NCBI RefSeq assembly: GCF_009363095.1
Contig: NZ_CP045295.1
Coordinates: 3,405,501-3,469,500, forward strand
Direction of reading: 5' to 3'
Length of the DNA stretch: 64,000 nucleotides
Source: Paenibacillus cellulositrophicus
GTDB lineage: Bacteria; Bacillota; Bacilli; Paenibacillales; Paenibacillaceae
The notes beneath the pieces were generated by a model that did no database searches, was not told the origin of the DNA, and worked only from the letters and a program-made list of their open reading frames with translations. The translations under genes and the position numbers were made by a program. Every line of letters begins with the position of its first letter. Within the stretch, counting starts at the first letter, position 1. Positions 7,698-31,769 of this stretch are shown one piece after another.

Positions 7698-8516
7698 TCA
7701 CCTGCGCGGCATGCCCTGGAATTCCGCCGGCGTCAGTCCGACGACCTTTTTGAACTGCTTGCTGAAATGCTTGGTATCATTGAAGCCGGACATCTCCGCG
7801 ACCTCATATACCTTCAGCGTTGGATTTTGCAGAAGCTCCTTGGCCCGGTTCACCCGCAGCGTAATCAAGTAATCGATGAAATTATGTCCGGTGACCCGCT
7901 TGAACATTTCACTGAAGTAGTTGCGGCTGACGCACACCTTGTCGGCAACCTGCTGCAGAGAGATCGACTCTGTAAAATGCTCCGAAATATACTCGACCGC
8001 CTGCTGGACGATCCGTTGGTGCAGCGATTTATCCGGAGGCGGACAATCCGCAGGGAGGGGCAGCGGCATCACCGCAACCGCCGGATCTGCACTGTTTTTT
8101 TCTTTGTACTGCTCCAGAATGCGGTGATCCTCCTTCTCCTTCTGCAGGCTGTGGCGCATTTCATATAGCACCGTTTTCAGCGATTCCGCACTCAGCATCG
8201 GCTTTAAAATATAGTCAAAGGCACCCAGCCGGATCCCCTCGCGGACGTACTCGAAGTCGCTGTGGCAGCTGAGCAGGAGCACCTTGACCCAAGGACAGAT
8301 TTCCCTCGTCCTGCGCGCCAGCTCAAGCCCATCCATGACCGGCATGGCAATATCGGTAATCAGAATGTCGATCTCCTTGCTTTCGACCCATTTCATCGCC
8401 CGCTGGCCGTTGGAGGCTTCTCCCACCAGCTCGAATCCGTTGACTTCCCATTCAAAAGTAGACCGAATCCCCATTCTTGCGATGGCTTCATCATCAACCA
8501 ACAGCACTTTGTACAT
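7698..8516 (-). CDS. AraC-type response regulator (YesN family)
   Basis: A 272-residue cytoplasmic regulator. The receiver domain (1-120) has the acidic pair DDE at 8-10 and the phosphoacceptor Asp55 in LITDIAMPVMDG. Two AraC-type helix-turn-helix motifs fill residues 170-270 (ISLQQVADKVCVSRNYFSEM and KVYEVAEMSGFNDTKHFSKQ). Its ATG (8516) overlaps the end of the sensor kinase gene by 23 bp. It follows the standard arrangement in which the pair senses a sugar outside and switches on the adjacent CUT1 operon, here at 7548-4281. Confidence 0.92.
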   Translation of the reverse strand: MYKVLLVDDEAIARMGIRSTFEWEVNGFELVGEASNGQRAMKWVESKEIDILITDIAMPVMDGLELARRTREICPWVKVLLLSCHSDFEYVREGIRLGAFDYILKPMLSAESLKTVLYEMRHSLQKEKEDHRILEQYKEKNSADPAVAVMPLPLPADCPPPDKSLHQRIVQQAVEYISEHFTESISLQQVADKVCVSRNYFSEMFKRVTGHNFIDYLITLRVNRAKELLQNPTLKVYEVAEMSGFNDTKHFSKQFKKVVGLTPAEFQGMPRR

Positions 8517-19706: not shown

Positions 19707-20402
19707 ATGTATAAAATATTGATCGTCGAGGACGATCCGAAGATCGCCGGTCTGCTTCAGTCCCATATCCAAAAATACGGAGACGAGGCCATCGTGATTC
19801 ACGATTTCGACCGCGTGCTGGATGAGTTTACGGCGGCCGCCCCCCATATCGTGCTGCTGGATGTCAACCTGCCGAGCTTCGACGGCTACTACTGGTGCCG
19901 GCAGATTCGTCAGGTGTCGACCTGCCCGATCGTTTTTATTTCGGCCCGCAACGAGAAAATGGACCAGGTCATGGCCCTGGAGAACGGCGGCGACGACTAT
20001 ATCACCAAGCCGTTTCACTACGAAATCGTGATGGCCAAAGTCCGCAGCCAGCTCCGGCGGGTCTACGGGGATTACGCTGCCGGCGGCGAGCGGACGGTCG
20101 AACAAGCCGGGCTTGTTCTGTATCCCGAACGGATGGAGCTGAAGCTGGGGGACAAGCGGATCTCCCTGACCCGGAAGGAAACGATCCTGATCGAAACCTT
20201 GCTGGAACGCAGTCCGCGGCTGGTCTCCCGGGAGACGATCCTCGAGAAGCTGTGGGACGACACGTTCGTGGACGACAACACCTTGAGCGTGAATATTACC
20301 CGTGTCCGCAAAAGGCTGGCGGAGCTGGGCATCGGGGAGGCGCTGGAAACGGTGCGCGGCTCGGGCTACCGCCTCAATATGGCCTGGAAGGATGAGACAT
20401 GA
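19707..20402 (+). CDS. OmpR-family response regulator, BceR type
   Basis: 231 residues. The receiver domain (1-118) has acidic residues at 9-10 and phosphoacceptor Asp52 in LLDVNLPSFDG. The OmpR winged helix (135-228) includes LTRKETILIETLLERSPRLVS and VNITRVRKRLAELGI. The next gene is a short intramembrane-sensing kinase and the following two encode a BceAB-type transporter, which identifies the regulator class. Start ATG with AAGGAGAATTCGGAT. Stop and next start overlap as ATGA. It should bind the BceR-like box at 21468-21483. Confidence 0.92.
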   Translation: MYKILIVEDDPKIAGLLQSHIQKYGDEAIVIHDFDRVLDEFTAAAPHIVLLDVNLPSFDGYYWCRQIRQVSTCPIVFISARNEKMDQVMALENGGDDYITKPFHYEIVMAKVRSQLRRVYGDYAAGGERTVEQAGLVLYPERMELKLGDKRISLTRKETILIETLLERSPRLVSRETILEKLWDDTFVDDNTLSVNITRVRKRLAELGIGEALETVRGSGYRLNMAWKDET

Positions 20403-21409
20403 CGGTGAAGCTCTTCATTCGCGATCATATTCCGCTGCTGATCTTCACGATGCTGGAACTGCTGGCCGTTGTGGTTGTGTTCTGGTTTGACGGATACGAC
20501 CATCCGCTCACGGCGCTCTATGGCATTTTTCTCGGCCTGTTTATTTTCGCCGGATATCTCATCTTTCGTTTCCTCAGCCAGCGGCTGCTGTACATGCGCT
20601 TATCCCATCCATTTGAAGCCTTGAACGAGTCGATCGCCGCAGGCGGTACCGCACCGGTGTCCCAAGCCTTTAACCACCTGCTGGAGACACAGTACCGGCA
20701 TTACCAGAACCTGCTTCAGACCTGGGAACGCAAGCAGCAGGAGCACCTGACCTTCATGAGCCAGTGGGTGCATCAGATGAAGACGCCGGTATCCGTCATC
20801 GAAATGATTACGCAGGGTGAAGACGATGAGCGTCTGCTGAGCATATCGGAGGAAACCGACCGCATCCGGCGCGGCCTGGAGATGGTGCTGTACGTGTCCC
20901 GTCTCGAAACCTTCGAGCAGGACTTCAGCGTGGAGCCCGTCGGGCTCAGGCAGACCGTAAACGAAACGGTGCATGAGCTCAAGCGGTATTTTATCCGCAG
21001 TCATGTGTATCCGGAAGTTCAGGTGGACGACGGGGTTATGGTGCAAACCGATGCCAAATGGATGCGGTTCATGCTCGAGCAGCTGTTGTCCAACGCCATC
21101 AAATATGCCGCCGGCTCCGGCAGCAAAATTACGGTTTCCGCCAGGATTGAAGACGATCGTTCTTTGACCCTGGAAATCCGGGACCGGGGCGTCGGCATTC
21201 CGAAGGCGGACCTCGGGCGGGTCTTCCGTCCTTTCTACACGGGCGAGAACGGCCGCAGGTTCAAGGAATCGACGGGTATGGGGCTGTATCTCGTAAAAGA
21301 GGTCGCGGACAAGCTGGGCCACGGCATTCGCATCGAATCGGCGCCCGGGGAAGGGACGGCGGTCCGTCTCCATTTTGAGCGCTCACAGGTACAGGTGCGG
21401 AATCGCTGA
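20399..21409 (+). CDS. Intramembrane-sensing histidine kinase, BceS type
   Basis: 336 residues. Two membrane helices (about 12-30 and 37-57) are separated by only about seven residues, so there is no extracellular sensor; such kinases sense through their partner ABC transporter. The phosphoacceptor is His125 in HQMKTPVSVIEM. The ATPase region has the N box LLSNAIKYA, the G1 box DRGVGIPK and the G2 box TGMGLYLVKE. It is translationally coupled to the response regulator. It presumably reports flux of the downstream transporter when a cell-wall-active peptide is present. Confidence 0.92.
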   Translation: MTVKLFIRDHIPLLIFTMLELLAVVVVFWFDGYDHPLTALYGIFLGLFIFAGYLIFRFLSQRLLYMRLSHPFEALNESIAAGGTAPVSQAFNHLLETQYRHYQNLLQTWERKQQEHLTFMSQWVHQMKTPVSVIEMITQGEDDERLLSISEETDRIRRGLEMVLYVSRLETFEQDFSVEPVGLRQTVNETVHELKRYFIRSHVYPEVQVDDGVMVQTDAKWMRFMLEQLLSNAIKYAAGSGSKITVSARIEDDRSLTLEIRDRGVGIPKADLGRVFRPFYTGENGRRFKESTGMGLYLVKEVADKLGHGIRIESAPGEGTAVRLHFERSQVQVRNR

Positions 21410-21467
21410 TTTCGGCGCCTTTTTGCCGCGCGTCCGGACAAGACAAGCCTGCAGGCGGTGACGCAAG

Positions 21468-21483
21468 CTTACATCCGTGTAAG
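21468..21483. promoter_or_regulatory. BceR-type operator
   Basis: CTTACA-TCCG-TGTAAG is a perfect 6-bp inverted repeat with a 4-nt spacer, matching the TNACA-N4-TGTAA box recognised by BceR-like regulators. It lies in the gap between the kinase gene and the ABC genes, about 195 nt upstream of the ATPase start. A half site TTACA recurs near 21527. This places the transporter pair under control of the regulator encoded upstream. Confidence 0.75.
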
Positions 21484-21676
21484 ATTGCTGAAAGGTCCAT
21501 CCATAGGAGATTTGGGCTCCATCGCTTACACTGGACCTAGATGAACCCTGCAAGCATCCTTTTACATCGATGCGCCATCACTGATCTTGTGGGGCCCTAA
21601 AATTGAACGGACCGCCGGCTCCGCCGCTCTCCCGCGCGCGGGCAGGTGTCCGGGTTGAAGAGAAGGAGTGCTTCGG

Positions 21677-22450
21677 ATGACGGACATTTTATCCGCCAAA
21701 AATATAGGCAAAATTTATAAAGGCATGGTTTCCTACGAGGCTCTGTCCAATATCGATTTAACGATTCAGGAAGGCGAGTTTGTCGGCATTATGGGGCCGT
21801 CCGGGAGCGGAAAAACGACCCTGCTGAACATCGTGTCGACCATCGACCGCCCGACCTCGGGCGAAATCCGCATCGGCGGAGAGGATCCGTACCGCCTGTC
21901 CCAGGATCAGCTGGCACTGTTCCGCCGCCGGGAGCTGGGCTTCGTCTTTCAGTCGTTCAATCTGCTTCATACGCTGACGGTGAAGGAGAACATTATACTG
22001 CCGTTAACGCTGGATGGCGTTGGCGTGCAGGAAATGAACGAGCGGGTCGCCTTGCTGGCCGAGAAACTTGGCATAACCCCGATCCTGGATAAGCGGACCT
22101 ACGAGATCTCCGGAGGGCAGGCGCAGCGAACCGCGATCGCGCGGGCGCTGATCCACCGGCCCAAGCTGCTGCTGGCCGACGAGCCGACAGGCAACCTGGA
22201 CTCCAAGGCAGCGCGCGACGTGATGGAAATTCTCGAGAAGCGCAATCAGGAGGACGGGGCCACGATGCTGCTCGTCACCCACGATCCGGTGGCGGCGAGC
22301 TACTGTCACCGCGTCATTTTTATCAAAGACGGCCAGCTGTACAACGAAATCCATGACGGGGATAACCGCGCGGCGTTCTACCAAAAGATCATCAACGTGC
22401 TGTCGCTGCTGGGAGGGAACGGACATGAATTTTCGCCAGTTCGCCTTTAA
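21677..22450 (+). CDS. Peptide-antibiotic ABC transporter ATPase, BceA type
   Basis: About 257 residues. Walker [12 protein letters not shown] (about residues 37-47), Q loop [13 protein letters not shown], signature [15 protein letters not shown] and Walker [16 protein letters not shown] are intact. The pattern is that of MacB/LolD-like type VII ABC ATPases. The ATG at 21677 is 8 nt after AGAAGGAG; a GTG at 21668 directly abuts that site and was not used. It powers the BceB-type permease whose start overlaps this gene by 26 bp. Confidence 0.92.
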
Positions 22451-24359
22451 TAACGTCTTCCGGAACAAGCGCGCGTACGTCGCCCATTTTCTGAGCAGCG
22501 CCTTTTCGGTCATGATTTTCTTCATCTATGCCCTGCTGCTCTTTCATCCCGACCTGAAGGGAAACATCGTGTCTTCCAGCGAAACGCTGAGCATGCTTGG
22601 CACGATGGGGCTGCGGGTGTCCCAATGTATCGTGTTCATTTTCTCGTTCTTTTTCCTGCTGTACTCGGCGTCTTCGTTTATCAAGCTGCGCAAAAAGGAA
22701 TTCGGCATTCTGCTCCTGCTCGGCATGTCCCGCAAACAGCTGAACCGGATGCTGTTTATTGAAAATATCGCAATCGGCGCCGCCGCCATTATCGCCGGGA
22801 TCATCGTCGGTGCCGTGTTCTCGAAGCTGATCCTGCTAATCTCCGCCTCGATGCTGGCGATCGTCGACGGGCTGCCCTTTTACCTGCCGGGAAAAGCCAT
22901 ACTGCTGACGGCAGGGGCGTACCTGCTTCTGTTCCTGCTGGTCGCTTCCTTTACCTCGGTGATGACCCGGAAGGGCACGCTCATCGAGCTGATCAAAGCG
23001 GAGGATAAACCCAAGCCCGAACCGAAGGCATCGGTCCTGCTGTCCGTCCTATCCGCCTTGCTCATTCTGCTCGGCTACGCCTGCGTGTTTCTGTTCGCGC
23101 TGCGCCGGATGTTCTCATTCCCTCTGCTGCTTGGCGGCGTGGCCCTGGTCATCTTCGGCACGTACTTTCTGTTCACCCAGCTCAGCGTGTACGTAATGAG
23201 AGCGATGAAGAAGCGGCCCCGTATCTTCCTCAAGCGGACGAACCTGCTGACGATTTCTGAGCTGATCTACCGGTTGCGGGACAATGCCGTCATGTTCTTC
23301 ATGGTTGCGATCATTTCCGCTACCGCTTTTACCGGGATCGGAACCGCGCTGGCCATCGGCGATCCCGGGCTCGCCGCGATGAAGAACCCGTATGCGTTCA
23401 CGTACGATTCATACCACGATTCGGACCATAAAAATTCGTTTGAGCAGAAGCATGTCCGCCTGATTGAAGATACGCTGCGGAGGGAGGGTTTTGACTACCG
23501 CAAAGTATCCTTTATACCGACTTATTCGGATAACGGGTTCATGCTGATCAAGCTGGACGATTACAACCGCCTGGCCGGGGCTCTGGGCTACGAGCAGGTG
23601 ACTCTACGTGAAGGGGAAGCGTTCGCCACGCCCTCGACGGTCACGCAAACCAGCGAGTTCAAGCTGGACGGATTAACCCAGGACCGCCTGACCCTGACGA
23701 AGGAAGGCTCGGAAATGACCCTGCATCTGCTCAAAGCGCTGCCGCATATCGTTGTTCCCAATACCACCAACGTGTATGTCGTTTCCGACGCAGACTATGC
23801 GAAGATGAACGCCGGCAATCTGCTCAAGATCGTCTCTGTGCAGTTTGTCGTCCCGGACTGGCATCACACGCTGCGTATCGCGCAGGAGCTCCGCGACACC
23901 ATTAATAATGACGTCGATGAGTCGGGAATTATGAATTACAACTTCCAGGCGCTCGTCATCGACTGGGTCGAGTCCCGGCAGTTAAACGGCCTGCTGCTGA
24001 TCGTCAGCGGGCTCGTCGGGATCGTGTTCTTCACCTTCGCTGCGAGCTTCATCTACTTCCGGCTCTATGCCGACCTGGCCCGGGACGAAGAACAGTACCG
24101 GATGATCTCCAAGGTGGGATTAAGCCGGAGGGAATTGGGGCGAACCGTCTCGAGGCAGCTGCTGCTGATGTTCTTCCTGCCGATGCTGGTGGCGGTCATC
24201 CACAGCAGCGTCGCCTTTCTGGCCCTGCAGCAGCTGGTCGACTTCTCCGTCGCTTCGCATACGCTGGCCATCTTCGCCACGTTCCTGGCGATCCAGGTCG
24301 TTTATTATTGGATCACTCGCTGGCGCTATTTAAATCATTTACATCAGAAAATGATCTGA
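22425..24359 (+). CDS. Peptide-antibiotic ABC transporter permease, BceB type
   Basis: 644 residues with about ten membrane helices arranged as in FtsX-type permeases. A long extracellular region (about 305-525) lies between helices 7 and 8, the part thought to recognise lipid-bound peptide in this family. Cytoplasmic loops include LRKKEFGILLLLGMSRKQL and DEEQYRMISKVGLSRRELG. Start ATG after GGGAGGGAACGGAC. With the ATPase it should confer resistance to, and signal the presence of, bacitracin- or lantibiotic-like peptides. The specific peptide cannot be read from sequence. Confidence 0.9.
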   Translation: MNFRQFAFNNVFRNKRAYVAHFLSSAFSVMIFFIYALLLFHPDLKGNIVSSSETLSMLGTMGLRVSQCIVFIFSFFFLLYSASSFIKLRKKEFGILLLLGMSRKQLNRMLFIENIAIGAAAIIAGIIVGAVFSKLILLISASMLAIVDGLPFYLPGKAILLTAGAYLLLFLLVASFTSVMTRKGTLIELIKAEDKPKPEPKASVLLSVLSALLILLGYACVFLFALRRMFSFPLLLGGVALVIFGTYFLFTQLSVYVMRAMKKRPRIFLKRTNLLTISELIYRLRDNAVMFFMVAIISATAFTGIGTALAIGDPGLAAMKNPYAFTYDSYHDSDHKNSFEQKHVRLIEDTLRREGFDYRKVSFIPTYSDNGFMLIKLDDYNRLAGALGYEQVTLREGEAFATPSTVTQTSEFKLDGLTQDRLTLTKEGSEMTLHLLKALPHIVVPNTTNVYVVSDADYAKMNAGNLLKIVSVQFVVPDWHHTLRIAQELRDTINNDVDESGIMNYNFQALVIDWVESRQLNGLLLIVSGLVGIVFFTFAASFIYFRLYADLARDEEQYRMISKVGLSRRELGRTVSRQLLLMFFLPMLVAVIHSSVAFLALQQLVDFSVASHTLAIFATFLAIQVVYYWITRWRYLNHLHQKMI

Positions 24360-24380: not shown

Positions 24381-24420
24381 ACAAGCCCTGGTGCGTGTAA
24401 GCGTGCCAGGGCTTGTGTTA
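24381..24420 (+). terminator. Terminator of the Bce-type operon
   Basis: ACAAGCCCTGG (24381-24391) pairs with CCAGGGCTTGT (24406-24416), with a weak T run after it. It could also help end the convergent cotH-like transcript. Confidence 0.75.
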
Positions 24421-24445: not shown

Positions 24446-25495
24446 TCAAAGCTGCTCCATTTCATTCTTGATATCCCGGCGCCGGTCTTCAATATATTCC
24501 CTGATGACATCCGGTTCCGTATCAAATATACCGACATCCCACTTATATTTAGGGTCATCATAGATATCCTGAGCAATGGCGCTGTGCATTTTCCTGACCA
24601 CAGGCATCAGGCGGGATAAGGTAAAGTTAGATTCCAGTGCCCGCTCAAGGATTCGCTTATACTTCTGTCTGTTCGCCTTGTAAGCCAGCACTTTTCCAGT
24701 CAGCACGTTGTATCCCTTAATCCTGACCAGGTCGGATTTTACAGCTTTACCATAGCAGTTTCTGCCCCATGTGCCCTCATAATCCCAAGGGATCATTCCA
24801 TACTTACTGCGTTTGCCGGATTCGAATATCGTATAGTTCTGGAGGAACCCGTCGTAATTTCCGGTCAGCACCGCCCCGCATAACCAGCGCAAGTAATTGT
24901 CCATATCCAGTCGCTGCCGAAGATAATCGCTTAGCTCGGTCCCTTTTTTCCGGTGAATGCTTCGGATGAAGTCGCTGAGGCGGTTCCTGTCCGTTTCGCC
25001 GCCTTTAATGAAAGCGTATCCTGACAGCAATCTGCTCGACTTCGCATTTTTTTCCGGCATTGCAAAGTCAGCATTATCATTGACCGCATAGATGATGCTT
25101 CGTGCATGGAGCCCCCTTTTGCGGAAAAAAGCGGACTTCACTGCCTCGATTCTTAAATACACCCCTTCCTTCTTTCCATTCATATAAAGTACGCAGTGTT
25201 TCGTCGAGGGGCTGGGGACGCCAAGCACATTAAAATAATGAAATGAAAGGGCGTTTCTCATCAGGGACGGATCATCGTGTTCCGCGTTAAAGTGGTACGT
25301 CGCCTTGGCCGTCCGAATCTCATAGGATTTTTTCGGATATTCACGGGTATGGCCCCCGCGGTAACGAATGCGAATCGGCGTCCTCCGGCCATCCATACTC
25401 ATCGTTCCACTGACAAACGAATCGGACCATATGTTGCTCTCCAGCTTTTTCATCGCCGAATCCTTTAACTCGATCCGGTATACAGGCAGACCCAT
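24446..25495 (-). CDS. cotH: CotH-type spore coat protein kinase
   Basis: 349 residues, close to Bacillus subtilis CotH in length and motifs. CotH is an atypical kinase that phosphorylates coat proteins CotB and CotG and controls outer-coat assembly. Visible motifs are YRGGHTREYPKKSYEI (45-60, nucleotide-binding region), NYDGFLQNY (213-221) and MIPWDYEGTWGRN (234-246), with Asp215 and Asp238 as likely active-site acids. Where B. subtilis has PWDYDATWGRD this protein has PWDYEGTWGRN, a conservative change worth checking. The start is not marked by a strong site (AGAAGGGCGG upstream), so an alternative start is possible. It is divergent from a CotB-like gene whose C-terminal repeats are a plausible substrate. 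Confidence 0.88.
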   Translation of the reverse strand: MGLPVYRIELKDSAMKKLESNIWSDSFVSGTMSMDGRRTPIRIRYRGGHTREYPKKSYEIRTAKATYHFNAEHDDPSLMRNALSFHYFNVLGVPSPSTKHCVLYMNGKKEGVYLRIEAVKSAFFRKRGLHARSIIYAVNDNADFAMPEKNAKSSRLLSGYAFIKGGETDRNRLSDFIRSIHRKKGTELSDYLRQRLDMDNYLRWLCGAVLTGNYDGFLQNYTIFESGKRSKYGMIPWDYEGTWGRNCYGKAVKSDLVRIKGYNVLTGKVLAYKANRQKYKRILERALESNFTLSRLMPVVRKMHSAIAQDIYDDPKYKWDVGIFDTEPDVIREYIEDRRRDIKNEMEQL

Positions 25496-25819
25496 GCCGT
25501 AACCGCCCTTCTAGATTGAATCGCCTGATCTACGGCCTGCCCGGCCCACTGGGGCTGAACACAGCGTGATCATTTGCCCTATTTAGGCTTTGTTCAACCT
25601 ATGCGGCCCCGGCAGTTCACGTAAGGGCTCCCGCCTTTCTAGTGTAAAAACTATTCGGCAGACATAGAAAGATAGACTCCGGTTTGATTTCGGATAATCT
25701 AGTATTTTCGGCTAGTCCCCTTTTTTGCAAGACACATATAAATAGATTACAGATAGACTCGAAGGACAAATAAAGCCCTTCATGAGACTATCCAAACTAT
25801 CTTGGAAGGGGTAATTGGT
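25496..25819. other. Divergent intergenic region between cotH-like and cotB-like genes
   Basis: About 320 nt without a credible gene. The 10-mer AGATAGACTC occurs twice (25670-25679 and 25751-25760). Sporulation promoters (sigma K or sigma E) would be expected here, but I could not place one with confidence; CATATAAATA near 25735 is the nearest -10-like match. Confidence 0.4.
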
Positions 25820-26566
25820 ATGTCGTTAGCAGGTCTTAACACAATGAACTCCATTGGGAGCGAGGTGAAAATCAATCGCGGCGGGCCCGATTCGATCGTA
25901 GGCGTTCTGGTGGGCGTACAACACGGTTACCTGGCCGTTGCGACGAAAGAGGGCATCGTCTATGTCAACAGCAGCCATATCAAAAGCATCAGCAGCACAG
26001 GCAAATCCGGAGGGGCAAGAGCCATGACGGCGGACCCGATTATGGCAGGAAATTTCACTGGATTGCTGCACGCGCTCCGTTACCAACACGTACAGATTAA
26101 CCGCGGCGGCCCCGAGAAAGTCGAAGGTGTGGTTGCGGATGTAAATCACTCCACCTTGACGCTAGTAGCCAAAAAGGATGAAGTCATCAGTATTCCGATT
26201 TTCCATGTAAAATCCGTTATAGTCATCGGCTCAAACACCAGTGGAGGAAACAAGAACAAGAGCGGCGGTAACAAAAACCAATCTAAGGGTAACCAAACCA
26301 AAGGCAATCAGACCAAAGGCAATCAGACCAAAGGCAATCAGACCAAAGGCAACCAAACCAAGGGTAACCAAACCATGGGCAACAAAACCAAAGGCAACAA
26401 AACTATGGGCAACAAAACCAAAGGCAACAAAACCAAAGGCAACAAAACTCGCGGCAACCATACCAAAGGTAATCTGACAAGAGGGGCCATGGAATGGGCT
26501 AACAGATCCTGGAGAAAGACCAAAACGATTAAACGTACGGTACGCAAGCGCAAAATCGGTAAATAA
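25820..26566 (+). CDS. CotB-like spore coat protein with Thr/Lys pentapeptide tail
   Basis: 248 residues. Two Lsm-like barrels cover about 12-58 (VKINRGGPDSIVGVLVGV ... VNSSHIKSIS) and 76-136 (VQINRGGPEKVEGVVADV ... IPIFHVKSV). The INRGGPE...G pattern and HIKSI ending match the repeats of B. subtilis CotB. A basic tail follows: an Asn/Lys/Ser-rich linker, then 13 pentapeptides of type GN(Q/K)TK at 157-221, then an Arg/Lys-rich end. In B. subtilis the CotB tail is Ser/Lys-rich and is phosphorylated by CotH; here Thr replaces Ser. The ATG at 25820 follows GGAAGGGG; a TTG at 25802 is too close to that site. No signal peptide. Spore-surface location is inferred from family and neighbour. Confidence 0.8.
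   Translation: MSLAGLNTMNSIGSEVKINRGGPDSIVGVLVGVQHGYLAVATKEGIVYVNSSHIKSISSTGKSGGARAMTADPIMAGNFTGLLHALRYQHVQINRGGPEKVEGVVADVNHSTLTLVAKKDEVISIPIFHVKSVIVIGSNTSGGNKNKSGGNKNQSKGNQTKGNQTKGNQTKGNQTKGNQTKGNQTMGNKTKGNKTMGNKTKGNKTKGNKTRGNHTKGNLTRGAMEWANRSWRKTKTIKRTVRKRKIGK
26288..26482 (+). repeat. 13-unit 15-bp tandem repeat inside the cotB-like gene
   Basis: Thirteen in-frame 15-nt units encode GNQTK (first six, the last with Met), GNKTK-type (five), GNHTK and GNLTR. Three adjacent units near 26303-26347 are identical in DNA, a sign of recent unit duplication and a likely site of length variation between strains. Confidence 0.9.
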
Positions 26567-26633
26567 GCCATGACTGCATTCAACCAAATAGACCCTTCGC
26601 GTTGAATCCAATCCACAAAGGGGGGAATAAACC

Positions 26634-26771
26634 ATGTATGTATTTATTGCAGTTTTAATTGCCGGAATCCCGTTGTACTGGATGATTCGTCCAGGAAAAG
26701 CTACACGGACCGCAGATCCAGTCATTCAGCCAGTATCCAGTGTTCTCCCCCTGGGAGGTGAGTCAAAGTAA
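26634..26771 (+). CDS. Small single-span membrane protein, 45 aa
   Basis: A 45-residue ORF. It starts MYVFIAVLIAGIPLYWMI, one membrane helix, then a short basic stretch (RPGKATR) and a polar tail. GGGGGAATAAACC precedes the ATG as a good ribosome binding site. Its TAA stop is immediately followed by the ATG of the ArsB-like permease, a TAAATG junction that suggests translational coupling. It may be an accessory peptide or stability factor of that permease. I do not recognise it from a known family. Confidence 0.65.
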   Translation: MYVFIAVLIAGIPLYWMIRPGKATRTADPVIQPVSSVLPLGGESK

Positions 26772-28115
26772 ATGTCTGACTACCAAATGTGGCTAACAGT
26801 CGGCGTATTTGCCATCACCGTCATTTTCTTGATGTGGCGTCCCCGCGGAATCAACGAATCCATTTCAACCACCGCCGGAGCATTTATTCTGCTCGCCGCC
26901 GGGGTCGTCCCTTTAACGGACCTGATCACCATTTTCAACATCGTTTCCGGAGCCGCTGTGACGATTCTGTCTACAATCGTGATGTCCCTGGTGCTGGACA
27001 GCGTCGGTGTTTTTCGCTGGGTTGCTCTCAACCTGATTGAACGGGTAAACGGTTCCGGCCGAAAACTGTTCTGGTACGTGATCCTGCTCTGCTTCCTAAT
27101 GACGATTTTCTTTAATAACGATGGCAGTATCCTGATCACAACGCCCATCATTATTCAAATCTGCTCGATGCTGAAATTAAAGCCGCATCAAAAAATACCG
27201 TATCTCCTGTCTGGAGCACTCATCGCAACGGCATCCAGCGCACCGATCGGCGTGAGCAACCTCGCGAATCTCATTGCGCTTAATATCGTAGGCCTGGACC
27301 TGAACAGCTATACCCTAATTATGTTCGTCCCCTCCATGATCGGGATCGCAACGATCGCCGTGCTGCTCTACCTCTATTTCCGCAAACAGATTCCCGTTAC
27401 CATCTCCCGTTACCCCGCCCGTGATTATTCATTGATTAACATACACCCGCTTCAACAGCCAACCGAATCCAGGACCCAAATCGACTGGTGGCTGTTTCGT
27501 GTCAGCATCTGCATCGTAGTCCTCTTCCGGGCTGGTTTTTTTCTAGCGGCAAGCTTGGGTATACCGCTCGAATATGTCGCAATCACCGGGGCTGCCCTCA
27601 TCGTCTTCGTCCGCTGGTTTCGGACCAAAACCGGGATCAAGGACATCGTCACGAAGACGCCTTGGCATATCCTGCTGTTCGCCTTCAGCATCTATATTAT
27701 CGTCAAAAGCCTGGATAACGCCGGGTTAACCGCCGCTTTAATCAACGGATTACAACCTTTTGCCGGCATGGGTGAAGCCAGTCTGATCGCTGCATTCGGA
27801 CTTTTGCTGACCCTGTTGTCCAATATCGTGAATAACCTGCCGTCCGTCATGATCGGAACCTTAGCGGTGCTCGGCATGGGACTTGATCCGCAGCATGTCC
27901 ATCTCGCTTATATGGCAACGATTATCGGAAGCGACATCGGTTCGCTGTTGACGCCTGTCGGAACCCTCGCTACCTTGATATGGATGTTCATGTTAAGAAG
28001 CAGCAAAATTCATATCACATGGAAGCAGTATATGCGCGTTACGTTCATTGTGATACCTGTCGGTCTAATCGTCAGCCTCGCCAGCCTTTATCTCTGGACC
28101 CAATATGTCATATGA
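26772..28115 (+). CDS. ArsB/NhaD-superfamily membrane transporter
   Basis: 447 residues with about 11-12 membrane helices. It resembles arsenical-pump membrane proteins of the ion transporter superfamily: FFNNDGSILITTPIIIQI (about 116-133) and ASSAPIGVSNLANLIALNI (152-170) carry the re-entrant loop signatures, and NNLPSVMIGTLAV with GSDIGSLLTPVGTLATLIW repeats them in the C-terminal half. The two loop pairs are typical of ArsB/NhaD/CitMHS carriers. No arsR or arsC lies nearby; the neighbours are coat-like genes, so the substrate need not be arsenite. The start abuts the 45-aa ORF and the end overlaps the leader of the next gene. Confidence 0.8.
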   Translation: MSDYQMWLTVGVFAITVIFLMWRPRGINESISTTAGAFILLAAGVVPLTDLITIFNIVSGAAVTILSTIVMSLVLDSVGVFRWVALNLIERVNGSGRKLFWYVILLCFLMTIFFNNDGSILITTPIIIQICSMLKLKPHQKIPYLLSGALIATASSAPIGVSNLANLIALNIVGLDLNSYTLIMFVPSMIGIATIAVLLYLYFRKQIPVTISRYPARDYSLINIHPLQQPTESRTQIDWWLFRVSICIVVLFRAGFFLAASLGIPLEYVAITGAALIVFVRWFRTKTGIKDIVTKTPWHILLFAFSIYIIVKSLDNAGLTAALINGLQPFAGMGEASLIAAFGLLLTLLSNIVNNLPSVMIGTLAVLGMGLDPQHVHLAYMATIIGSDIGSLLTPVGTLATLIWMFMLRSSKIHITWKQYMRVTFIVIPVGLIVSLASLYLWTQYVI

Positions 28116-28128
28116 AAGGAGGCAAGCT

Positions 28129-28791
28129 ATGGAGTCCATCCGTTCTCTACTTGGAAAAATAATAGAATTAAAGATCTCGGGCTATAAAATCCCGATCATC
28201 GGTGAACTCATTGATGTCGGCAGTGATATTTTGGTCCTCTACTCGGAAAACAAATATATTTACACTCCGGTACACCATCTTCAGCACATGAAGGTCATTG
28301 AGGAGGCCGAGGATTCGTCTCAAGCTAACAAAGAGCCCGTTCTTGACCATGCCCATATTTCTTTTCGCAAGATGCTGATGAATGCAAGAGGCATATTTAC
28401 GGAGATCCATCTTGGCGGTGCCAGCTCGATTCATGGGTATGTAACCAGCATTATGAATGATTATTTCCTTTTCTACTCCCCTGTTCACCATACCGTCTAT
28501 ATCCCGCTGCACCATGTAAAATATTTGTCTCCGTACCCTCCGAATATGACCCCCTATGATTTGAGCGATTCGCATTTTCCCGTGCAGCCGGGAACACCGG
28601 CCCTATCGAGGAACTTGGAACAACAGCTTGAAAAATTCCAGAATGGTCTGGTCGTGTTCGATTTGGGTGAATCTCCCCTCAAAGCCGGGCTCCTCAAAAA
28701 AGTAGACAGTCATATTATAGAGCTGATCGAGGCCGGAGGCCAAACCATCCTTCTTCACACGGATCATATCAAATCCATTCATCTCCCCTAA
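28129..28791 (+). CDS. CotB-like protein with three Lsm-type repeats, no tail
   Basis: About 220 residues. Three strand-rich repeats are visible: residues 9-55 (IIELKISGYKIPIIGELIDV ... HHLQHMKV), 85-135 (FTEIHLGGASSIHGYVTSI ... LHHVKYL) and 170-219 (LVVFDLGESPLKAGLLKKV ... TDHIKSIHL). Each ends in an H(H/D)(L/V/I)-type motif like the HIKSI end of CotB repeats. It lacks the basic tail of the protein encoded at 25820. The ATG at 28129 follows AAAGGAGGCAAGCT; the upstream ATG at 28105 overlaps the permease stop region. Likely last gene of a four-gene operon. Probable spore coat or spore-associated structural protein. Confidence 0.7.
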   Translation: MESIRSLLGKIIELKISGYKIPIIGELIDVGSDILVLYSENKYIYTPVHHLQHMKVIEEAEDSSQANKEPVLDHAHISFRKMLMNARGIFTEIHLGGASSIHGYVTSIMNDYFLFYSPVHHTVYIPLHHVKYLSPYPPNMTPYDLSDSHFPVQPGTPALSRNLEQQLEKFQNGLVVFDLGESPLKAGLLKKVDSHIIELIEAGGQTILLHTDHIKSIHLP

Positions 28792-28794
28792 CCA

Positions 28795-28835
28795 AAAACA
28801 GCCAGTGCAGAGCATGCTCTGCATTGGCTGTTTTT
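28795..28835 (+). terminator. Strong rho-independent terminator
   Basis: AAAACAGCCAGTGCAGAG pairs (one G-U) with CTCTGCATTGGCTGTTTT around a CATG loop and ends in T5. It closes the cotB-like operon. Confidence 0.92.
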
Positions 28836-29047
28836 GCATAACGCCGGAATCCGGCAGGGGGGCCGTTTCCGGTTTCCGGGGAGCTTCGCGGCAGAGTTGC
28901 GGGGAAGGGGGATCTAGGAGCCAGGAGCAGGGACCTTTCGTGGGGAGAATGGCGTTGTTTGGTTAACTGGGGTGACCGGCTCATCGTCTCACTTTCCGAT
29001 CTGCGCATATTTTAACCGAAGAACAGGCCTTTGGCGATTAACGAAAG

Positions 29048-29076: not shown

Positions 29077-29129
29077 GAGAGAAAAAGTACGGAAAAGGCA
29101 TCCATTTTGTCGGAAATTTGGAGGATACA

Positions 29130-31769
29130 ATGATCACGCGGACCGATGCAATCATCTTAAAAACAAAAATCACCCTGCCCTTTCCGAAGGATGGCCTGGT
29201 CGAGAGGGAACGCCTGCTTCAATCTCTGTCGGGTGGAGTTCATGGCAGACTCACCTTGATTTACGCCCCTGCCGGCTCAGGCAAAACCACCCTGTTGACG
29301 CAGTGGGCCCGAAGCGAAGGCGTCAACTGCGCCTGGCTGGCGCTGGACGGCCGTGACAACGATCCGGTCCGGTTCTGGCGCTATGCGGCGTTTGCATTGG
29401 CGGAAATCCTGCCGGCCCCGGCAGCCCTGCGAATGCTGGAACTGGCCAATGCCCTGCCTTCCCTGTCGGCAGACGCCTTTCTGGATGCGTTAATGAATCA
29501 GCTTTATGGACTGTCCGAGCCTGTAAAGCTCGTATTGGACGATTATCATTGGATAGAGGATGACCGCATCCATAACGGTTTGTCTTACCTGATCGACTAT
29601 ATGCCCCCCACCCTCCATGTGACGATCGCGAGCCGCAAGGAAGTACCTTTTCCTTCATCAAAATGGCTCTCCAAGCGGGAATGCATCGTCATTGACGCCG
29701 ACAGGCTCCAGTTTACCCGGGACGAGTCCGAGCAGTTCTACCACAAGTCCGGCATCATGCGGTTGACCCCGCGGCAGATCGACCGGATTGCGGAACGAAC
29801 CGAGGGATGGGCAGCCGGTCTGCAGCTGGCTTCGCTCTCTTTAAGAACGGCGGAAGATGTGGACCGATGGATCGAAGGGTTCTATGGGGACCACCGGGAT
29901 GTGGCCGATTACCTTTTTCAGGAGGTACTTGCGCAGCTTCCTGCCGACTTGAGGTCGTTCGTGCTGACGACGGCCGTTCTCGACCGGATGGATGCGGGCA
30001 TATGCAGCCTGCTCACGGGCGACCCTGCGAGCGGGGACAAGCTTGATGCGGCCCGGCGGTTCAATTTATTTCTCATCCCGCTGGACCTGAAGCATGAATG
30101 GTTCCGCTACCACCATTTATTCGCCGGATTTGTCCGGGAACACCTCAAGCGGCATCAGCCCGATGAATGGTTGCAGCTGAACCAGCTGGCAAGCCGGGGC
30201 TTTGCGTCCCGCGGATTGCTGGACGAAGCCGTAGACCACGCCATGGCTGCCGGAGATTACGCCGAGGTGGGCCGCCTGCTCGAGCAGCATATTCCAGCCG
30301 TGCTGGAGCGCGGGGAAGTTTCCGTCCTGCTGCGCTGGTTCGAGGGCTTCCCGCCAGCCTATGAGCTGTCTATGGAGCTGTCGCTCCTGTACGCGTTCGT
30401 ATTGGTGCTCACCGGGCACTTCGGCCAGGCTGAAGCCAGACTCGGATCACTGGAGGCGTCGACCCGGATGCTGAAGGAATCGGAGCGGCTGAAGCAGCTG
30501 CAGAGCGGCATCCTGTTCGTCCGTTCCAATCTGATGTTCGCCAGCGGAGACTTCACGAATTGGTTTGCCTTCATCGGTACCATGCTGGACGATATCCTCC
30601 CGGCTGACCCGACTTATTATATGTTTAACTACAACAAAACGGAGCCTCTTGTGAGACGGACCTCTCTGGGGCTAAAAGGAGTTCTGTCGGCGGACACGGA
30701 AAAAATCGGCACGCTGTTTATGGGTGTGCTCGCCGCCCATGGCTGGCAGGGGTCGCTCATTCATCTCTACGTGAAGCAGTCGCTCGTTGAAGGATATTAT
30801 GAATGGAACCGTCTCGGCGATTGCCGCCAGATGCTCCAGGAGATGACAGCTCTGACCGAAAAATTAAACGTACCGGGACTGCTCGTCCCCATGCTGCTCA
30901 TGAAGGCCCGCCTGCTCATTGCGGACGGGCGGACCGCTCTGGCGCATGACGTCATCGACGAAGTGCTGGATGCCCCGCTCTCATCTTCTGCTGGCTGGGG
31001 CACGCCCTGGGTCCATCTGCTGACGGCATTCAAAATCCGCATGCATCTTGCGGACGGGCAGATGCCGGCCGCCAAGAAGCTGATGGCCCGGCTGGGGCTG
31101 TCCGTCAAGGACAAGCCGACATTTCAGCGGGAGTATGAAATGATGACGCTTGTGCGCCTGCTTGGCAAGCAGCGGAAGGAGAACGAGGCGCTGCGGATTC
31201 TGGAGCATCTGCTGCCCCAATCGGAGCGCGAGCAGCTCGTTTCCGGCATCGTGGAGAACCATATCCTGCAGGCGCTGCTGAAGGAACAGCTGGGGCAAAA
31301 AACGGCCGCCCTCCGCCACCTCCATACCGCCCTGTTCCTGGGAGAACAGAACGGGTATATCCGGAGTTTTGTGGATGAGGGCAAGCCGATGATGTCGCTG
31401 CTTGGCCGGTATGAGGCGGTCGTCATTCGCGGAGAGTCCGGTGGAAGCCATGAGGACTTTGGGGCCGGGCTCCCGGGCGAAGTATCCGGGGATTATGTCC
31501 GCGCGCTTATGGGAATATTCGCTGTGGCCATGCAGGAGACGGCGGCTGCGGCTGCAGCTCCGGCGGCCACGGCCGAGCCGCTGAGCCGCAGCGAATCCGA
31601 GCTGCTCCGGCTGATCGGCCAAGGGGCAAGCAATAAAGAGATGGCCGCCGAGCTGGCGCTGTCGGAAGGGACCATTAAGGTCTACTTATCCCGCCTGTAT
31701 GAAAAGCTAGGCGTATCCTCGCGAACCCAGGCGCTCGTTACGGCCCGGCAGCTCGGTCTGCTGTCTTAG
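29130..31769 (+). CDS. MalT/LuxR-family ATP-dependent transcriptional activator
   Basis: About 879 residues. A STAND-type ATPase occupies the N-terminal third with Walker [15 protein letters not shown] (about 46-59) and LVLDDYHWIEDD as Walker B region. A winged-helix/TPR superhelix (about 360-760) follows. The C-terminal GerE/LuxR helix-turn-helix (about 815-875) reads LSRSESELLRLIGQGASNKE and GTIKVYLSRLYEKLGVSS. These regulators oligomerise on binding ATP and an inducer. The ATG at 29130 is 7 nt after GGAGG; the TTG at 29118 overlaps it. Target genes are not evident. Its 3' end overlaps that of the convergent histidine kinase gene by 32 bp. Confidence 0.9.
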   Translation: MITRTDAIILKTKITLPFPKDGLVERERLLQSLSGGVHGRLTLIYAPAGSGKTTLLTQWARSEGVNCAWLALDGRDNDPVRFWRYAAFALAEILPAPAALRMLELANALPSLSADAFLDALMNQLYGLSEPVKLVLDDYHWIEDDRIHNGLSYLIDYMPPTLHVTIASRKEVPFPSSKWLSKRECIVIDADRLQFTRDESEQFYHKSGIMRLTPRQIDRIAERTEGWAAGLQLASLSLRTAEDVDRWIEGFYGDHRDVADYLFQEVLAQLPADLRSFVLTTAVLDRMDAGICSLLTGDPASGDKLDAARRFNLFLIPLDLKHEWFRYHHLFAGFVREHLKRHQPDEWLQLNQLASRGFASRGLLDEAVDHAMAAGDYAEVGRLLEQHIPAVLERGEVSVLLRWFEGFPPAYELSMELSLLYAFVLVLTGHFGQAEARLGSLEASTRMLKESERLKQLQSGILFVRSNLMFASGDFTNWFAFIGTMLDDILPADPTYYMFNYNKTEPLVRRTSLGLKGVLSADTEKIGTLFMGVLAAHGWQGSLIHLYVKQSLVEGYYEWNRLGDCRQMLQEMTALTEKLNVPGLLVPMLLMKARLLIADGRTALAHDVIDEVLDAPLSSSAGWGTPWVHLLTAFKIRMHLADGQMPAAKKLMARLGLSVKDKPTFQREYEMMTLVRLLGKQRKENEALRILEHLLPQSEREQLVSGIVENHILQALLKEQLGQKTAALRHLHTALFLGEQNGYIRSFVDEGKPMMSLLGRYEAVVIRGESGGSHEDFGAGLPGEVSGDYVRALMGIFAVAMQETAAAAAAPAATAEPLSRSESELLRLIGQGASNKEMAAELALSEGTIKVYLSRLYEKLGVSSRTQALVTARQLGLLS

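Follow-up and report, generated by a model that had tools for sequence, protein, structure and literature searches.

The 64,000-nucleotide stretch of the Paenibacillus cellulositrophicus genome analysed here (the window) contains a CotH/CotB-type locus of five genes, in which a carrier related to the arsenite pump ArsB is embedded among genes for spore-coat proteins and a coat protein kinase. The locus is the Paenibacillus form of a coat gene cluster that is also present in Bacillus subtilis. We consider it fairly probable that the carrier belongs to the coat programme and acts in late sporulation on a small neutral hydroxylated solute, its gene lying in a late mother-cell coat operon that faces the kinase gene. 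Sporulation-specific expression, phosphorylation of a coat protein tail and the transport role are each something that we infer. The gene calls, Pfam assignments and identities to B. subtilis proteins agreed with the five genes at positions 24446-28791, and with their orientations, as proposed in an earlier note on this DNA (Table 1).

The linkage between the carrier and coat genes was examined by aligning the carrier against the contigs of named genomes and taking the best 80 of 457 relatives, a sample that does not include the window locus. All of the organisms named among these loci were Bacillota, of spore-forming lineages as judged by their names. Profile hidden Markov models (HMMs), partly built from the same loci, detected a gene of the CotB family no more than about 6 kb away in 63 of the 80 loci, which had been picked by the carrier alone. 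The CotB-family gene stood directly downstream of the carrier in 55 loci, directly upstream in 49 and on both sides in 42, and cotH was detected in 27, so that either family was found in 65. The same scan around ordinary ArsB, used as a control, detected a CotB-family gene in none of 20 loci (Fisher p 3e-11). When kinship was allowed for by counting genus labels, the linkage was observed in 26 of 31, in differing orders and orientations. The view that the carrier is a member of a CotH/CotB spore-coat cluster is thus supported, and the association extends far outside this one genome. It would be hard to credit that the carrier stands beside coat genes by chance and is functionally unrelated to the coat: the 17 carrier loci with no CotB gene nearby speak for such an explanation, but the breadth of the linkage over genus labels and gene orders, together with a common promoter-like element (see below), speaks against it.

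Closer views of single families gave a similar picture. In the Gottfriedia family, cotB2 adjoined 26 of 30 carrier loci examined and one more weakly. Many genomes of this family (G106, G118 and others) gave between two and five hits with the carrier query, of which a few were ordinary ArsB, and most of the coat-type copies examined were paired with cotB2. Among 20 regions around carriers of Bacillaceae and the Gottfriedia family, cotB2 was adjoining in 16, consisting of all 13 Bacillus-type regions (L316-L328) and three others, and was not adjoining in L331, L333, L334 and L335. Neighbours of about the size of cotB2 at two unlinked carriers (L179, L228) were checked and proved not to be CotB.

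In a set of 100 Paenibacillus genomes, in which the carrier was counted at 380 bits or more, the carrier was found in 19 genomes, cotH in 17, cotB2 in 16 and cotB1 in 13. The carrier was present in all 13 genomes with cotB1 and in all 16 with cotB2. The gene order of the window occurred in three of the 13 cotB1 genomes, namely this genome and two near relatives, and three of the 13 had the carrier within about 2 kb of cotB2 in convergent orientation. In three further genomes (G044, G048 and G071), a distant cotB2 (33-38%) adjoined the carrier. Seven Paenibacillus genomes have cotB1-cotB2 without the carrier, which raised the idea of an insertion of the carrier in the clade of the window. The wide scan speaks against this, since in many genera the carrier was flanked by CotB genes or had one next to it, and the sequences are better read as loss or relocation of the carrier in those seven genomes.

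The carrier was ArsB-like, as the earlier note had stated, in both sequence and predicted fold. It matched Pfam ArsB with 227.6 bits and stayed under both NCBIfam ArsB cut-offs (334 versus 457 bits and 287.5 versus 415 bits). The predicted model (mean predicted local distance difference test score, pLDDT, 75.8) fitted best to the ArsB structure of L. ferriphilum (LfArsB, 10tp; template-modelling score, TM, 0.83), and also matched the folds of INDY, Pho90 and NaS1. In a phylogenetic tree, all 97 coat-type carriers, a set that may include a species twice, formed a single clade, from which LfArsB and 20 ordinary ArsB proteins were separate. The contacts of As(OH)3 in ArsB are described as Asn111, Asn337 and Ser380, with Asp112, Asn158 and Ala382, and proton coupling is assigned to Asp112 and to Asp148, which forms a bridge with Lys374 (PMC13381914; this and all other papers are cited here from excerpts). 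Most of the residues of this metalloid pocket were shared by the coat-type carriers: Asn111, Asp112, Asn158 and Asn337 were each kept in 96 of the 97, and Ala382 in all. Asp370 was likewise kept in 96. Unlike in the ArsB pump, Ser380 was replaced by Thr in all 97, Phe60 by Ile in 95, Asp148 by Thr in 95 and by Ile in two, and Lys374 by Leu in all; in at least 95% of the carriers, Ala110 and Ala114 were replaced by Asn and Ser, respectively. The 20 ordinary ArsB proteins kept the LfArsB residues at all 13 sites listed, including Asp148 and Lys374. In the window carrier, T153 and L392 stand at the positions of Asp148 and Lys374 (LfArsB numbering), and the same Thr and Leu were observed in all of 20 further carriers including B. 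subtilis YwrK, which is 46% identical to the window carrier. Because the pocket residues are conserved and the Asp148-Lys374 pair is replaced, the coat-type carriers appear to have kept a pocket for neutral small hydroxides and to have lost part of the proton coupling. Two Desulfosporosinus loci (L197, L211) contained two tandem carrier copies; the analysed copy had Ile at the Asp148 position, and cotH but no CotB gene lay within 5 kb.

The conservative interpretation of these features is house-keeping efflux of arsenite or antimonite, in which a plain ArsB protecting the sporulating cell would merely be placed in a coat operon. The fold and pocket agree with this, the literature calls YwrK an arsenical membrane pump (PMC4933340), and for the spore proteome ArsB and ArsC have been named as house-cleaning proteins (PMC3533761). 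We nevertheless regard it as unlikely. Mutation of Asp148 or Lys374 lowers the arsenite resistance conferred by E. coli ArsB (PMC13381914), so that both residues needed for full resistance are replaced in the coat-type carriers. Of the 20 ordinary ArsB loci, 17 had an ArsR-like gene nearby, but only one of the 80 coat-type loci did, and its match was weak (L172); ArsC-like genes were detected at 15 of 20 versus none of 80. The ArsR and ArsC models used for these counts were built from eight of 32 listed neighbours, which Pfam assigned to ArsR (5/5) and to the low-molecular-weight phosphatase family (3/3), a family that we take to include ArsC. Ordinary ArsB was also present in 17 of the 19 Paenibacillus genomes with a coat-type carrier, and arsenite export is therefore probably covered elsewhere in these genomes. 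Taken from the sequences, the coat-type carrier is probably not an ordinary arsenic pump. A carrier for an oxyanion or carboxylate (phosphate, sulfate or dicarboxylate) of the wider IT superfamily would fit the matches to INDY, Pho90 and NaS1, but it is quite improbable, as ArsB was the best match in both fold and sequence, and as Asn337, for which Pho90, a phosphate carrier, has His (PMC13381914), stays Asn in all but one of the 97 carriers. The earlier suggestion of ion or oxyanion traffic is accordingly changed to a neutral hydroxylated solute, the residues of a neutral-metalloid pump pocket being kept.

The comparison with B. subtilis placed the window locus in a known setting. The order ywrK-ywrJ-cotB-cotH-cotG was read in a B. 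subtilis region (L316) by gene size and homology, with flanking genes that are presumably alsS, alsR, ywrF, ywrE and ywrD. The order ywrK-ywrJ-cotB-cotH-cotG-ywrF-ywrE-ywrD is also found in print (PMC6768931). The carrier, YwrJ, CotB and CotH families all occur in this one neighbourhood with 27-46% identity to the window proteins. Unlike in the window, where the carrier lies inside the operon between cotB1 and cotB2, ywrK stands alone and convergent to ywrJ; the window moreover has a microprotein gene before the carrier, and its cotB1 takes the place facing cotH, with no cotG seen at the locus. The earlier note had correctly placed cotG next to cotH in B. subtilis, but the cluster there holds the carrier as well. 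Since the model organism has it, with the same residue signature in YwrK, a carrier in a coat cluster is not the surprise it had been taken for. In print, ywrJ is listed among Bacilli-specific sporulation genes by Galperin and co-workers (PMC3533761), and ywrK has served as a site for insertions (PMC9765535). The literature searched yielded no paper that gives ywrK a role in the coat.

The arrangement of the window genes is compatible with an operon. cotH is oriented leftward, and cotB1, the microprotein gene, the carrier gene and cotB2 rightward with gaps of 67, 0 and 13 nucleotides between them. As these gaps are short, as no stable hairpin was found in the first of them (z +1.0), and as a 20-pair hairpin of -33.3 kcal/mol (z -9.3) follows cotB2, it is likely from the sequence that the four genes are read as one transcript from a promoter before cotB1. 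The pattern AGTYCC-N12-18-ATATAAATA had one match in this genome, located at cotB1. With the spacer set to 16-17, a class chosen after the cotB1 sites had been seen, 20 matches were obtained in the 100 Paenibacillus genomes, of which 10 were at cotB1, three at a stand-alone carrier and one beside cotH. A weight matrix was derived from 13 cotB sites of Paenibacillus and Bacillus (four distinct sequences per block; threshold at most 5 of 200 shuffles). By this matrix, the element preceded 12 of the 16 stand-alone carriers in Paenibacillus versus one of 20 ordinary arsB genes. The classical sigma-K pattern, AC-N14-18-CATANNNTA, was detected in the Bacillus-type regions before three of 11 ywrK-type genes and before none of six cotB genes. 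In B. subtilis, cotH requires sigma-K, and cotB and cotG require both sigma-K and GerE (PMC7821199); because of the latter, the element is by analogy probably a late mother-cell promoter.

Several observations weigh against the assignment of the carrier to the coat programme. The selection of the 80 loci and the partial origin of the HMMs from them have to be counted here. In Paenibacillus, four of the 17 cotH genomes lacked the carrier, and the carrier was on another contig in seven of the 13 cotB1 genomes. Among the 17 loci with no CotB gene nearby, eight belonged to Desulfosporosinus, Paradesulfitobacterium or Peptococcaceae: CotB linkage was found in none of four Desulfosporosinus loci, two of which had cotH nearby, and three of four further Peptococcaceae loci were unlinked. 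The node uniting the coat-type carriers has a printed support of 0.867. As for the promoter-like element, the spacer class was chosen with the cotB1 sites in view, and the weight matrix located the element before only three of nine Bacillus-type ywrK genes (p 0.08). The two-block element with spacers of 10-20 gave 70 matches in the 100 genomes versus 75 for the reversed control; because the count over all spacers shows no excess, evidential weight lies only in the placed class with spacers of 16-17. The downstream half ACATATAAATAK with one mismatch gave 66 matches in this genome versus 67 for the reversed control, and 30 of these 66 loci, viewed by eye with no family search, displayed no coat-gene pattern.

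The cotH product matched Pfam CotH with 229.5 bits (cut-off 23.8) over positions 1-320 of the 322 in the profile. The context NYDGF of Asp228 and the segment IPWDY-TWGR were aligned and kept in the window protein; the D228Q variant of B. subtilis CotH is catalytically inactive (PMC7821199). The cotB1 product contained DUF6897 in two stretches (E 4.8e-7), was 27-32% identical to B. subtilis CotB, and ended in a tail of 108 amino acids with a net charge of +30 and 20 Ser/Thr residues. The CotH kinase and a CotB with a basic repeat tail resemble the CotB/CotG/CotH phosphorylation module described in B. subtilis (PMC7821199), from which the window differs in its Lys/Gly/Asn/Thr repeats in place of Ser-rich SKR repeats, and in that no cotG was seen at the locus. 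By analogy with this module, CotH may phosphorylate Ser/Thr residues in the CotB1 tail. CotB2 was 39.8% identical to B. subtilis YwrJ over 226 columns. Its predicted model (AlphaFold2, AF2; mean pLDDT 85.8) consisted of three sets of five strands, which may form small barrels, and gave weak matches to triple-Tudor and KOW folds. A second CotH-family protein was encoded in the same genome in an open frame of 749 amino acids (L002, L003; G000:C1:4041248-4042660). In a genome with cotH but without cotB1 (L090), a Lys-Ser-His-Gly repeat protein with a CotG-like composition was encoded from about position 8009 on the plus strand, facing cotH.

The 45-amino-acid microprotein belonged to no Pfam family. 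In 45 of 105 loci, a small open reading frame of 44-79 amino acids abutted, overlapped or closely preceded the start of the carrier gene, as counted with a profile grown from eight seeds and iterated on the very sequences counted, and one of the 45 matches was weak (L217, E 0.004). The profile had no match in 1047 control small open reading frames. These proteins have one N-terminal hydrophobic stretch of roughly L-x-G-x-x-L-Y-x-L-L-x-P-P. Nine of them searched against Pfam yielded no family and three chance-level matches (E 0.13-0.17); a resemblance to KdpF was not supported. No microprotein was found before B. subtilis ywrK. In the window, the microprotein is a probable small partner subunit of the carrier.

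Under the favoured interpretation, the operon cotB1-microprotein-carrier-cotB2 would be expressed late in the mother cell, facing cotH. CotH would phosphorylate Ser/Thr residues in the basic CotB1 tail, and CotB1 and the YwrJ-type CotB2, each composed of small beta domains, would serve as coat proteins. Together with the microprotein, the carrier would be produced in the same period as a transporter of the coat programme. With the elevator fold and the pocket of ArsB, but an altered proton coupling, it would bind a small hydroxylated solute that is uncharged, and would move this solute across the mother-cell membrane or the outer forespore membrane during coat assembly.

Arsenite is the conservative candidate for this solute and silicic acid the leading bold one. 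A carrier resembling plant Lsi2 could deliver Si(OH)4 for silica formed on CotB tails that become zwitterionic through phosphorylation by CotH, which we regard as rather unlikely. Lsi2, compared here by its published description only, is an ArsB homologue like the window carrier and moves Si(OH)4 (PMC8550040, PMC12016540), so that both may handle small neutral hydroxides. In B. cereus, CotB1, whose tail is zwitterionic, is reported as essential for spore silica (PMC11818168, citing Motomura 2016). The neutral pocket is kept, and the replacements at Ala110 and Ala114 add two polar residues near the hairpin tip. Among the 27 CotB1-type tails listed beside carriers, with limits drawn by a crude rule, 22 were net positive before any phosphorylation, and a CotB-type protein of Jeotgalibacillus soli (L204) ends in a long Lys-Asp repeat that is zwitterionic without phosphorylation. 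Against silicic acid, the other five of the 27 tails were net negative, and ArsB and Lsi2 are exporters, so that silicic acid would have to enter by some other route. The carrier is also present in B. subtilis, where heavy spore silica is not known. It is likewise doubtful, though conceivable, that the YwrK-type carrier with its microprotein is the missing silicic-acid transporter of spore silica, with phosphorylated CotB tails as silaffin-like templates.

If the coat-programme interpretation is correct, coat assembly includes the directed transport of a small solute, a process that is absent from the coat models known to us. The microprotein would add a small transporter partner outside the Pfam families. 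ywrK, which has been used as an insertion site (PMC9765535) and described as an arsenic pump (PMC4933340), appears to encode a carrier that is conserved as part of the coat programme and whose coupling site has changed.

Table 1. Features of the coat gene locus in the window
Feature	Position	Strand	Basis
Terminator-like hairpin between cotH and convergent ABC (ATP-binding cassette) permease gene	24381..24416	-	0/200 shuffles equal it, either strand
cotH, CotH-type coat protein kinase, 349 amino acids	24446..25495	-	Pfam PF08757; 40% identity to B. subtilis CotH (L316)
Promoter-like element AGTCCC-N16-ATATAAATA before cotB1	25714..25744	+	Single match in this genome
cotB1, CotB-type coat protein, two repeats and basic KGNxT tail (tail about 26240-26566)	25820..26566	+	Pfam DUF6897; identity to B. 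subtilis CotB
Single-helix membrane microprotein, 45 amino acids, abutting the carrier start	26634..26771	+	Similar small open reading frames before carriers elsewhere
ArsB-like (YwrK-type) carrier, 447 amino acids, IT superfamily	26772..28115	+	Pfam ArsB; separate clade; T153 and L392
cotB2, YwrJ-type coat-like protein	28129..28791	+	40% identity to YwrJ; AF2 model
Operon terminator hairpin after cotB2	28793..28836	+	-33.3 kcal/mol; 0/200 shuffles equal it

Genes of other families flank the locus on both sides. At 19707-24359 of the window, a response regulator, a histidine kinase, an ABC ATPase and an FtsX-type permease are encoded in a row adjoining cotH, a set that presumably is of the Bce-like kind; an FtsX-type permease was found beside cotH in nine of 30 regions mapped. 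Directly after the operon, at 29118-31769, a MalT-like regulator with a LuxR helix-turn-helix is encoded, and such a regulator also follows cotB2 in L034, L035, L083 and L084.

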